Origin: Nannochloris sp. 'desiccata'
Taxonomy: Eukaryota; Chlorophyta; Trebouxiophyceae; Chlorellales; Chlorellaceae
Assembly (NCBI GenBank): GCA_019044685.2
Contig: JAGTXX020000011.1
Coordinates: 1,674,001 to 1,738,000 of the forward strand
Direction of reading: 5' to 3'
Length of the DNA: 64,000 bases
Positions 19,094 through 55,723 of this stretch are shown here, piece after piece (positions within the stretch are counted from its first letter, which is position 1; each line of letters starts with the position of its first letter). The notes below the pieces were generated by a model. It was given only the letters and a program-made list of their open reading frames with translations, was not told the DNA's origin and did no database searches. Position numbers and translations under genes: made by a program.

Positions 19094-20070
19094 TTAAGCT
19101 GCTGCTGTTGAAATTTCTGGAGAACATGCAGTCAAAACACCAAATGTATTTCTCAAGCTTGGACTTTCATTTTGTTCCTGCTGCGCATGCTGGGCTGATG
19201 ACCTTGCTGATAACGCATTCTTTCCCTCAGGCGTAGTAGCTCCTGCAGTCATAACTTTGGAGGCGAGAGGAGTAGAAGAACGGCTATTAATCCTGTCTGT
19301 AGGAGTTGTATAAACAGAGGACGCGGCTGTGACGTCAACATTTCGCCGTGTTTGAGGAGATACTGCTGTATTTTTACCAGCCCCATTCGTTTGTGACAAG
19401 CCATCAGTTGCCACCACGACGGCACCATCTCCAGGCACTGCCTCTTGATTTTGATGTGGGTCTAGACGGAGGCATTCCGACGATGAAATCACAGCTGCGG
19501 TGGTGGTAGGGAAGCAGATCTTAGTTTCTTCAGTGCAGGTGGCAAATACCGAGCTCATGGAGCCAGTTTCAGTCAGCTTCGCCAACAACGACGCACGAGG
19601 GATAGAGGCACAGTTGAGCGCTTCCATCCAGGCTTTATGAACTTCAGGGGTAGGGGCTAACAGTACGTAGAATGGATATTTAGCAATGTAGGCGTGCTGG
19701 ACGTGGAAGATAATTGTGATGCAGAGGCTGTAGATTGTTTGAGCGCTGTTGCCCAAGTAGCCAGGTGGAGGTCCACTTTGAACGCGAGCGCGCTCTAATG
19801 GAATGATTCCATGCAAGGCTTTAACGTTCTTCCTGTTCTTGAAGTAATACAAGATGGATCCCTGAGGGAGAGAAGGAAATGAATGGTGAGATGAGTGAAA
19901 GGTGATGAGCGGCCGGAGAACCTAGGAAATTGGAGAACTGTAATTTTCAGTACCTTCAGAACAAAGAATCTCTCTTGCCACCCCCCAACCCGCCCATGAG
20001 CATGTTTTTTGAGAGTTCCTGCTTGATCAGGGTTTGCCCAGAGGCATTGTAAATCGGTTGGCAAAGGCAT
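19094..20070 (-). CDS. Pleckstrin-homology domain protein
   Basis: Exon 1 20070-19954 (MPLPTDLQCLWANPD, 39 codons) and exon 2 19861-19094, joined in phase 0 across an intron of 92 bases (GTACTG...CCTCAG); 294 residues. The splice reconstitutes a PH domain: AGTLKKHAHGRVGGWQERFFVLK | GSILYYFKNRK, then GIIPLERA, and the C-terminal helix EVHKAWMEALN. PH domains bind phosphoinositides, so a membrane-associated adaptor is likely. After the domain come 150 residues of Ser/Thr/Ala-rich linker with no recognised motif. The intron sits inside the PH domain. Its promoter region, shared with EFR3, has been invaded by a hAT element. Confidence 0.78.
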
Positions 20071-20339
20071 TGTGTCAGGGAAGATGTAAGATGTTTTCAA
20101 GGGACAAAAATTAAATTGATTACGAGTTTGTTGTTATTACAGCGCAATTTACGTCTAAAAGTGAGAGTGACTGAGTTTAAGACTAAATTGAGAATGCAAC
20201 AGACCCACGGAAGGCTGGTAAATAAGAGAGGATCGCCCACCAGCCTACCAGTCAACGTCGACGAAGAAAGGCATTCTATTTTCCCAGGAAACCAGTAGAA
20301 CGCTAGGCTATCCCGACCAGTGCTTCGTTTAGCCGGCAT

Positions 20340-20500
20340 ATATGCCGAAAATGCCGGAAAATGCCAATTTTCCGGCATTTTCAGGCGCAGGAACAGGAAA
20401 AAATGCCGTGCAAAAAGTGCCGGAGCGGAGCTCCGGCGGGCCAGAAATGCCGGGGGAAAATGCCGTTTTTTTTCGAAAATTTTGAAAAAATGCCGGAGAT
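20340..20500 (+). repeat. Left-arm subterminal AAAATGCCG repeats of hAT element 1
   Basis: ATGCCG preceded by A-runs recurs six or more times here, with some copies inverted (CCGGCAT). A second cluster of five to six copies, in the same orientation, is at 20954-21055 in the right arm. Confidence 0.85.
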
Positions 20501-20568
20501 TTAGGCCAGTTTTAGAGTACTAAATTAACAAAAGTTCATTTGTAAGAGGTTATTCTCTCATTATCACT

Positions 20569-20872
20569 ATGGATACCACTCGGCAGACCAATGATCAGGA
20601 CTTAGTCCGAACTTTGGTTGCCCAGATCTTTGATCGAGTCATGGCTGTCCAGCACTTGCAACAACCCATTGATTTGACTTCTTCTCCGTTCAAAGAACCT
20701 GCTTTGAAGGTATGTGATGTCATCTGTATGCTTAATTTCTTAAAATAAGCCACCCAAATTCAAATCTGAATTTTCTTCCTTGTTGCAGAAGAGGAAAAAA
20801 GGTATGGAAGGCGAAGAAAAAGCGTCGTGGAGCGCATTTGTAGTTCCTTGTTTTGCTTTTTTAAAGATGTAA
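20569..20872 (+). CDS. Small two-exon ORF inside the hAT element
   Basis: Exons 20569-20709 and 20789-20872 (intron 79 bases, GTATGT...TTGCAG) give a 74-residue protein starting MDTTRQTNDQDLVRTLVAQ. It contains PIDLTSSPF, similar to a SUMO-interacting motif, and after the splice a basic KKRKKG stretch like a nuclear localisation signal, ending in a hydrophobic tail. I do not recognise it, and it is not hAT transposase. It is either a host gene fragment captured by the element or a short element-borne gene. Evidence is limited to the intact frame with plausible splice sites. Confidence 0.4.
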
Positions 20873-21241
20873 TCTAAAGAAATTCCAGCCATGTTTCAAT
20901 AAGGCGCATCTGCGCTGCTCAGAAATAGTGCCTGATGCTGTCAAGAAAAAAAATGGAAAAAATGCCGGGGCAGAATCCAAATATGGAAAAAATGCCGGGG
21001 CAGAATGCCGAAAAACAGGCCAGGGACGAAAAAATGCCGGGAAAAAATGCCAGGCCAAAATCCTTAAACGAAGCACTGATCCCGACTGATCGCAACAAAA
21101 AAAAATGCTGCTGTTGTATTTATAATATCCTAACATTGCGTTGAGCTCTTAAACCTGTGGCACTAAAGTGATCAAAAGAATTCATTATTGGAGTTTCAAA
21201 GAAATCCTGTATTAAACCATATATAGGCAAAAAAGTCTGTT

Positions 21242-24033
21242 ATGGATTGTAATTGCAGCTGTTTAGGTCCTACGGCAGCAGCCAAAGTGCCTGTCAAGAG
21301 GTATAATCTACTAGTTCCAGCGATCTTCCCTGTCACCGAACCCAACTGGACAAAGCCCCTGGGAATTTCTACTGAGAAAAACATTAAACGACTCTCAGAG
21401 TATTTGGAACGCAACGAACATCGCATCCCCAAGGTGATCAATTATTGCAAATCATCCAAGAAAACTTCTGCTCCCTTCCGTCCTCTCCTATTTTTCATAT
21501 ACCAAATGTTCTCTTCATCGTATATTCAACGCCTTTGCCCTCTATATATCTACAGGTATCAAGAAGATTAGCACGCCGGCTTCATTATGACCTCTCTAAG
21601 AACAGGCTCGGCTTTGTCCGCGTTGCTGTCGCCGCCTACACACATCTCGCCACCACAGAAAGTGGCCGCTTTGCTCGCCTTTACTCCAAAGAGCTGATCG
21701 TTCGATATCCTACAAAGAAGAGATACCTGTGGGGCCTAGTAAGTCCACGCCCAGCAGCATCTAATCTGCCCCCATCCTCTGCTCATCTTGGCAGTGTTGT
21801 TGGCGCTCTTATTTCTTCACCTCAACCTCCTGCTCAGCAATGGGGGCTAGAGTTACTCACTACACTGTTAAAACAGCAAGAAACGGCAGAGTTTATTGGT
21901 ACATTTGAAACATTAGTACCTCTTCTTTGCTCCAAAGCGTGTAGCTCCACATATGCCATTACTACTGTGAAAACTAGGAATGGCAAAAGAGAAGGAGGAG
22001 GTGGAGAAGGTGTTGCCGAGGACTCCGACACCGCTGTTGTAACTGCAGTGCCTACAGCTGATGGGGAACGAGATCCTGCCAATCTAATCGCCTCTTTAAG
22101 CCTGCAAGCACTATTAGAACACCTACGCTTATGTTTCCGTCTCTCCTACGTATCTTTTCATTTAGATTCAATCACATATGCGGTCTTAAGTATTATGGAA
22201 GCAGCAGGGGCTGCTACGGGAATTGATTACTCGACCGCTTCTAAAGCTGTTGCTGCTGGAGTTTCCCTGCCGTTATCATCATTAGCCAGAGAGTCTGTCG
22301 GCGCGAGAGTAGGTGCGTCTTCTCCTGGTTATGCAGCTCTATTGGTCTATCAGGAGTTGGGTCAAATGACGAGAGATGCCGCTGAAGGAAAGAAAGTGCT
22401 TGAATTTCTTTTTAGGTACCTCGATCAAATGCCAAAACGCTGGCTTGGCGGTCCTGCACTTGATGTCGGTCTAGGTGTGATGAGGGATGCATGTTCTCAG
22501 GAACATCAGAGATTTCTATTGACTACGGCTTTGATTGTCCATGTTGGAGCGGCAAAGGGGTTGAATGAAACTCAACGGGTGGCTGTATTAGAGCAAGCTA
22601 TGAAGGATGCAGCTGTTTTAGAAACAAGTATGGCACCGTCTGCGTTGCTTCAAGCTCTCCAAGAACTTCCAAAGGCGCTAGCAAGCGTCCGAGATTTAGT
22701 GCAGACAGAACAAAGCGAATTTGGAAAAGCTGTGATCACTGCAGTTCGTTCTTTAGCTGGACAGGTTGGCACACGGTTACAATTGACCTCTGCACTTGGA
22801 GCAGCAATGACCAGACTTGGTGGACCTTCAGCTCCACTGTCCACGGGCACCTTGCAATGCTGTGCAGCAGCCTCTAACGCATACTCTACTCTGCCGCCGA
22901 GAGCTCTTGGGGCTTCCGCAACACCGCACTTACCCAACGTGCTCTTACGTTCAGCCCTAGGTATTTGCTTAAGTTGGAACCCTAAACAAAGGCTATTAGC
23001 ACATCAGATTTTGAGAAATGCGCTTACTGGGGTACCACAAGGATCCTATATGACCCAGGTGATGCTCGTACTTTCATCTATATGGCATGAAGTAGCTCTA
23101 GTGGAGAATACACCAGAATGCTTCAAGGCGATGGATGCTACATTAGGCGCGGTAGTGTCTGCTTCTAGTGGGGCGGAAGAACAGTTGAGAGCCTGTCAAG
23201 TGGCATTATCGTTGCAAAACGAAGTCCTCTTGTTGTCCTCGCCTTCTTCGTCTTCCACTGCCGCTGCAAGACTGGGTAATACCCAGCCAGCGCAACTGTG
23301 GGCTATTCTTGCATTAAGTGCAAGTTTATTACACCGTGTAGCCCACAGAGTAATTTCTCCTAGTCTCCAAACTTTAACTGTGCTGAACTCTAGCAGTAAC
23401 GACAATGCTATTGGTCTTCCTAGTTTGATTTTAAGCTCTACAACAGGGCTGGAAACGCCTGGTTCTACCGCTATTTCACACTTTAATGAAGCTGATCACT
23501 TTGTAGCTCGCCAAATTCTGGCTTCGTTACCACAGCAACAACAAGAAGATGCAGCGGCGAAAATTCTAGCGAGCATCTCTTCTTTCAAGTCACTATTACC
23601 TGGGCCAAGCACTCAGTCTTTGGCGTTTGTTCCCTTGCCACGCGCTTCTATTGCTCCTCCAATCACCCTCGCTGCGCCTGTATCAGCTGCTGATGGTTCA
23701 GAAGCACCCCCCAGTCCTAGAGCAAAGAGATTGCAAGCAGCATTTTCAGGTGCTGCGTCAACTGGTGGCGGTGGCAGCATCTATAACGAAGGAAAGTCTG
23801 TTCAGAGTGATGATGCTGTAGCAGGAAGTAGATTCGCAGTAGATACGAATGGGACTGATGGAGGGGAGAGTATGGAAGGACGTAGTACCTTTGCGACAGA
23901 GTATAGTGGCAGTCATGGCGGGGGTGGTGACGGTCACTCTAACAAGGCAGGCAGCTTCAAGCAGCTTGCGCCGTCGTTGACGGAGGTGTTGGCAGGTGTT
24001 GAAGCAGCTCTTGTTTCTGTAGGTAGTAACTAA
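21242..24033 (+). CDS. EFR3-like plasma membrane ARM-repeat protein
   Basis: Exon 1 21242-21433 (64 codons) and exon 2 21556-24033; intron of 122 bases (GTGATC...TCTACAG); 889 residues. Matches EFR3 in its most conserved N-terminal part: VPVKRYNLLVPAIFP, an acidic/basic KNIKRLSEYLERNEHRIPK, then after the splice a basic RRLARRLHYDLS segment. The very N-terminus MDCNCSCLG places three cysteines at positions 3, 5 and 7, the kind of palmitoylated cluster that anchors EFR3. The rest is helical repeats, with a low-complexity C-terminus (TGGGGSIYNEG, SHGGGGDGHS). EFR3 scaffolds phosphatidylinositol 4-kinase at the plasma membrane. The C-terminal half has little that can be recognised. Confidence 0.75.
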
Positions 24034-55294: not shown

Positions 55295-55723
55295 CTCAAA
55301 TGCAGTGTTTTTATTAAGGATTTTGGGGTGACGAAAAATTTCGGCGAATTTTCCTCCTGTCGCAAATTTTCGGCGAATTTCTGCCCGGCGATTTTCTGCT
55401 CAAAGCTGGCCTTGCCGGCGGCTCAAAATTTTCAAAGTCTGGAGGGGCGCCTGTGTAACTAGTAATTATACAGAAAAGAAGAAGCAATATGGATCAGAAG
55501 CTCATAAACTGGCACCTCGACGCTCTTTTGCTTTCCACGCAACAAATGCCAGCCAAAAGTTGAAAATTTGAAAATTTTACCTGCAGTTGATCCGGCGAAA
55601 TTTGTCGCCGTCGCTGCGCGACGGCGAAATTTTGCCGGCGAATTCTAGGCTTCAAAAAATTTCCGGCGAACGAATTCGGCGAATCCCGGCGAATCGCCGA
55701 CTAATAAAAACACTGCTCAAATG
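55295..55723. mobile_element. Non-autonomous hAT transposon (413 bp) with 8-bp target duplication
   Basis: Element 55303-55715. Left end CAGTGTTTTTATTA (55303-55316) is the exact reverse complement of the right end (55702-55715): a perfect 14-bp terminal inverted repeat starting CAGTG. It is flanked by CTCAAATG at 55295-55302 and 55716-55723, a perfect 8-bp target duplication. The arms carry about ten copies of a GGCGAATTT/GGCGAAATTT subterminal motif. No coding capacity. It shares with element 1 the CAGTG start, 14-bp TIR length and repeat-array design, but the motif and remaining sequence differ, so it is a separate family. Confidence 0.93.
55340..55700. repeat. Subterminal GGCGAATTT repeats of hAT element 2
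   Basis: GGCGAATTT/GGCGAAATTT-like motifs recur in both arms, left at about 55,340-55,395 and right at about 55,595-55,700, including three closely spaced copies next to the right terminus. Confidence 0.85.

Follow-up and report, generated by a model that had tools for sequence, protein, structure and literature searches.

Transposable elements of the hAT superfamily are characterized by terminal inverted repeats (TIRs) of 10–25 bp and by autonomous elements of 2.5–5 kb (PMC3942097). As far as the cited parts of the sources describe them, several known systems combine such an element with shorter dependants. Ds-del elements of the maize Ac/Ds system are non-autonomous, simple internal deletions of the autonomous element and have 8-bp target site duplications (TSDs), short TIRs and hexamer repeats within the terminal 200 bp (PMC3260210). 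In rice, the short hAT element nDart1 (607 bp for nDart1-3) is moved by a separate autonomous element, aDart1 (PMC4585910), and hAT insertions in the green alga Auxenochlorella UTEX 250-A are polymorphic between haplotypes (PMC12633428). Here we describe a similar arrangement in the trebouxiophyte Nannochloris sp. 'desiccata', which has a published assembly of 21.6 Mb with 45.0% GC (PMC12633428). A 64,000-nucleotide stretch of contig JAGTXX020000011.1 (positions 1,674,001–1,738,000, forward strand; hereafter the window) contains a 761-bp element that shares each of the Ds-del features listed above. It is very probably a non-autonomous, cut-and-paste hAT element that arose by one internal deletion from a longer element resembling L009 (3,245 bp) of the same genome, with an L009-type transposase acting in trans.

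The element occupies positions 20318–21078 of the window on the forward strand, between two copies of the 8-bp repeat ATCCCGAC (20310–20317 and 21079–21086, both forward). Its left TIR, CAGTGCTTCGTTTA (20318–20331, forward), and its right TIR (21065–21078, reverse strand) are perfect over 14 bp, and identity stops at base 15 (GCCGG... versus AGGAT...). This structure, reported in an initial annotation made from the window sequence, was confirmed by reading the letters and by script. The window was also scanned for perfect inverted 12-mers that lie 80–5000 bp apart and have a perfect 8-bp direct repeat on either side. Of 52 inverted pairs in the whole window, two qualified, namely this element and a second structure at 55303–55715, and 100 dinucleotide shuffles of the window produced none in total. 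The reversed window also gave two structures, but this control is not independent because reversal preserves inverted and direct repeats.

All internal features lie on the forward strand. A left subterminal region with six ATGCCG and two CGGCAT hexamers (20334–20495; element positions 17–178) is followed by 47 codons of exon 1 of a transposase gene, from ATG to splice donor (20569–20709), which are identical in L009, and by intron 1 (GT...AG; 20710–20788). Next come the junction of the internal deletion (20801–20805), where GGTAT is common to both sides and ~2.48 kb of transposase gene are missing, and a right subterminal region with four ATGCCG hexamers (20962–21039; element positions 645–722). 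Splice sites of exon 1 were inferred from the reading frame, and intron 1 from the frame and the protein models P0001 and P0012. Exon 1 starts where P0012 starts (NADE_002141; a 74-aa hypothetical protein publicly annotated at window positions 20569–20872), and P0012 is probably transposon sequence that has been annotated as though it were a host gene. The initial annotation called the element a miniature transposon. It is indeed a short non-autonomous element, but the label is loose because this is a simple internal-deletion derivative that retains the 5' region, exon 1, intron 1 and 3' end of the longer element. A strict miniature inverted-repeat transposable element (MITE) has no coding capacity and a high copy number. 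Here an ATG, exon 1, intron 1 and an annotated 74-aa hypothetical protein are present, so that some coding capacity may remain, and the copy number given below, a lower bound, is modest for a MITE.

L009 has the same termini as the 761-bp copies and three inferred exons encoding 854 aa. Its hAT-type transposase gene looks intact: spliced as inferred, it contains neither a stop nor a frameshift. Searching the genome with the exon-2 protein found this single full-length copy. With perfect 14-bp TIRs and a transposase gene within 3,245 bp, L009 falls within the size ranges of autonomous hAT elements and is putatively autonomous; the initial annotation had suggested a search for a transposase gene with the same termini, and L009 answers to that description. 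A Nannochloris sp. 'desiccata' protein matches the L009-family transposase at 100% identity over 97% of the query. Its hAT affinity, which the initial annotation proposed from the ends and TSD, is supported by the 8-bp TSDs and TIRs, by a C-terminal hAT dimerisation domain (PF05699; 24.6 and 23.3 bits against a cut-off of 21.4, with profile positions 37–81 of 84 aligned) and by a Hermes-like predicted fold, in which an RNase-H-like core contains the hAT insertion as in Hermes. The hAT transposases carry catalytic D, D and E residues together with CxxH and RW motifs. Candidate counterparts in P0001 are D276, D347, C375/H378, R438-W439 and E772.

The nearest derivative, L035, has its left 487 bp and right 279 bp in common with L009, with GGTAT as the overlap and two substitutions. 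Having an internal deletion and both ends in common with L009, the 761-bp element can be classed by sequence as a Ds-del type derivative. A deletion of ~2.48 kb at the 5-bp microhomology GGTAT in an L009-like element would have produced it. Transposase supplied in trans by L009 would then move the 761-bp copies: an N-terminal zinc finger would bind the repeated subterminal ATGCCG motif, cleavage at the 14-bp ends would fall to the RNase-H-like core, and insertion would occur with an 8-bp stagger. This pairing of transposase and copies, the motif binding, the splicing and any present activity are inferred.

Copies were sought in 21.55 Mb on 18 contigs, and the counts are lower bounds. Searching with the element, as the initial annotation had suggested, revealed at least 27 bodies at 25 loci, 746–761 bp long and 98.7–100% identical, plus fragments and relatives. 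The 14-bp end has 59 matches in the genome and its reversed control has none. By manual tally, 46 matches belong to 23 single copies, three to a composite (L010), four to a nested pair (L011), two to L009, two to a 382-bp variant (L017) and one to L016; 58 of the 59 are therefore ends of the 761-bp family or of its close relatives L016 and L017, and the remaining one, at C10:101533, has no detectable element sequence adjoining. A perfect 8-bp TSD lies directly beside 24 of the 27 bodies, and the other three, within L010 and L011, are resolved through the outer TSDs. All 26 inferred insertions of the 761-bp type thus have a perfect 8-bp TSD, each different and with different flanks, as do all 28 family insertions examined when L009 and L017 are included with respect to the 8-bp TSD; the TSD of the older relative L016 has one mismatch. 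Among the 28 TSDs, T2 and A7 occur together in six and TA occurs in the middle of three. Symmetrised T2/A7 occurs in 26 of 56 (p = 0.012, uncorrected for the positions looked at) and T3/A6 is equally frequent (26 of 56), and these patterns are weak as a guide to the hAT group (Ac, Buster, Tip). Two older relatives, L013 (C15:943528–944433, 906 bp) and L014 (C15:313818–314739, 922 bp), have largely different interiors with CAACAG repeats and are 97.3% identical over 1376 alignment columns; they probably represent one insertion duplicated with its surroundings because they share the TSD CCAAAGAG and have similar flanks.

Most bodies fall into two types. Type A comprises 13 bodies, the window copy and 12 others, that are identical apart from a T run of 7 or 8; type B comprises 10 full bodies and two without the first 9 bases, identical with the same proviso. 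Within the two types there are no substitutions in 18,772 bp. L045 differs from type B by one extra A. L035 carries the full-length element's markers and is without the 6-bp deletion of type B. These data fit a very recent origin of the type A and type B copies. The initial annotation had argued for recent insertion from identical ends and TSD; its conclusion is supported, but identity of TIRs and TSD by itself says little about age, and the recent date rests on the identical bodies of many copies. The simplest order would begin with a full element, from which one internal deletion gave an L035-like form; two separate bursts would have followed.

Nesting adds to this history. In L011 (C7:459639–461161), a type A copy lies in the left end of a type B copy, with bases 10–17 of the outer copy (GTTTAGCC) doubled around the inner one and the TSD of the outer copy, ATTCAGAG, outside. 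The corresponding spot is uninterrupted in the other full bodies, so that the nesting provides an empty site within the family, equivalent to the comparison with a relative's empty site that the initial annotation had suggested. L010 (C9:479267–480774) has an A copy and then a B copy that lacks bases 1–9, flanked as a pair by a single TSD, CATTGGGG. Its A and B bodies differ from those of L011 in T-run length only. The simplest reading is that the inner left end and the outer right end of an L011-like nested donor were used as a pair and that the composite inserted as a unit, L011 looking like its donor type. Nested and composite copies together suggest that ends are used in mixed combinations in nature. 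In the 100-aa hypothetical protein P0011, exon 1 is repeated, as if spliced across a composite.

Several points weigh against derivation from an L009-like element and mobilization by its transposase. The family is known here from sequence alone, not from movement, an excision footprint or a transcript, and its hAT placement rests on element and protein features rather than on phylogeny within hAT. Two bases of intron 1 distinguish L009 from L035; L009 is therefore closely related to the parent element but need not be the parent itself. The predicted protein model is moderate (predicted local distance difference test score (pLDDT) 61.6, predicted template modelling score (pTM) 0.54, 5 sequences), and the N-terminal zinc finger, a candidate for the BED type and a region of mixed confidence in that model, scores 22.0 bits against zf-C17orf113, below the cut-off of 29.5.

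The strongest alternative, which carries real weight although we consider it the less probable course, is that the copies are hAT derivatives of a now-silent family, the bursts being over and the copies kept identical by gene conversion or by a recent founder population. It is compatible with the anatomy above. It gains from the finding of a single full-length copy and from a case for ongoing movement that does not draw on expression or movement data. Against it stand the 13 and 12 bodies without substitution at scattered loci and the full copy free of stops and frameshifts under the inferred splicing. Gene conversion would be expected to mix types A and B, whereas intermediate markers occur only in L035, where they fit an ancestor as well as a recombinant. 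We retain the reading that the family jumped recently and may continue to do so.

Mobilization of the 761-bp copies by another hAT transposase, either that of L047 or that of another hAT-domain locus, is improbable. L047 is complete at 3,109 bp with perfect ends and TSD, and the genome has nine hAT-dimerisation matches above cut-off, five outside the loci examined; yet L047 has other TIRs (CAGTGTTTTTATTA), another hexamer (TCGCCG) and its own 413-bp derivatives, and among the examined loci L009 alone has full ends and internal sequence in common with the 761-bp copies. A chance transposon-like intergenic repeat or segmental duplication has a negligible probability and was rejected: L013 and L014 look like a duplication of one older insertion, which indicates that such duplications occur here, but the shuffles yielded no such structure and the 761-bp-type insertions have 26 distinct, perfect TSDs and differing flanks.

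L047 itself defines a sister family. It has the TSD TTCAGAAA on both sides and encodes P0002 at 100% identity in two exons; P0002 is 37% identical to the L009-family transposase. Its end has 15 matches in the genome (control 0), of which two are in L047, ten in five 413-bp derivatives with perfect 8-bp TSDs and three at one-end loci, two with family sequence and one (L056) without. The second structure in the window is one of these derivatives (55303–55715, reverse strand; TSD CTCAAATG). With both strands counted together, ATGCCG occurs 12 times in the 761-bp element, compared with a mean of 0.24 and a maximum of 3 in 2000 mononucleotide shuffles and with 27 occurrences in the remaining 63,239 bases of the window. 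Counted likewise, TCGCCG occurs 11 times in the 413-bp form, where shuffles averaged 0.15 and never exceeded 3; the remaining 63,587 bases of the window contain 26. The 761-bp form has no TCGCCG. L047 has TCGCCG 12 times, all in the outer 160 bp on the left and 90 bp on the right, and ATGCCG once, in its interior. The first hexamer positions nearly coincide (17, 25 and 34 for ATGCCG; 17, 24 and 34 for TCGCCG). The two transposases may each read one hexamer. We propose tentatively, with slightly less than even confidence, that L009/761-bp and L047/413-bp are two parallel, currently working two-part hAT systems in which transposase and hexamer (12 copies in the ends of each full element) diverged together, that the pairs do not cross-mobilize, and that direct nesting yields composites able to transpose as one piece by means of mixed ends.

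The window element sits between open frames. Its right end is 163 bp from the ATG of frame 21242–21571, and on the other flank two overlapping minus-strand frames span 19094–20100, one of which weakly resembles a PH domain (20.6 bits, below the cut-off of 25.1). The adjoining gene at 21242–24033, for which a profile search returned no Pfam match, is one that we take to resemble the EFR3/SRL2 type. Elsewhere, five of the nine hAT-dimerisation matches above the Pfam cut-off lie at C1:408169, C10:664012, C8:112561, C8:143470 and C3:73950, and L049 (C11:1851080–1852182) holds two transposase fragments of ~33–37% identity in opposite orientation, with inner ends meeting.

The transposition mechanism itself is ordinary. 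The L009/761-bp family, which combines an intact-looking enzyme gene with more than 20 near-identical short copies in 21.5 Mb, may act as a natural mutagen of Nannochloris sp. 'desiccata' and is a candidate gene-tagging tool for that alga. A sister family with changed end and hexamer at matching positions offers a way to study joint divergence of a transposase and its binding motif. A literature search for the 14-bp end found no paper, in keeping with the initial annotation, which knew of no described hAT family with these ends, but the genome paper (Sanders et al. 2022) was outside its reach, so novelty is provisional; for hAT transposable elements in Nannochloris, a search retrieved only the study of Auxenochlorella, in two versions.

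Known systems share parts of this pattern, within the parts of the sources cited. Hermes of the house fly (PDB 4d1q and others) has different ends and 11–14% sequence identity in structural alignments, and the Hermes-type nTnnnnAn preference (PMC10368747) is weakly suggested here (6 of 28 TSDs with both bases). Mar MITEs of Drosophila willistoni are also internal-deletion hAT derivatives with two recent amplification events, CAG-type ends and 8-bp TSDs, but their TSD consensus is the Buster type nnnTAnnn, found in 3 of 28 here, and their full-length copies are relics whereas L009 is intact-looking (PMC3517528). Potentially active hAT families occur in Auxenochlorella UTEX 250-A, also a trebouxiophyte with a small diploid genome (PMC12633428), and nDart1/aDart1 has promoter-region insertions likewise (PMC4585910); both are likened by description, not sequence, and nDart1/aDart1 activity is demonstrated in rice whereas the Nannochloris family is known from sequence. 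Ac/Ds remains alike in element type, although the Ac TIR (C/TAGGGATGAAA) differs from CAGTGCTTCGTTTA. Chromosome-breaking double Ds is reported as absent from maize B73 in the cited part of that source (PMC3260210); Nannochloris, in contrast, has one direct nested pair and one composite.
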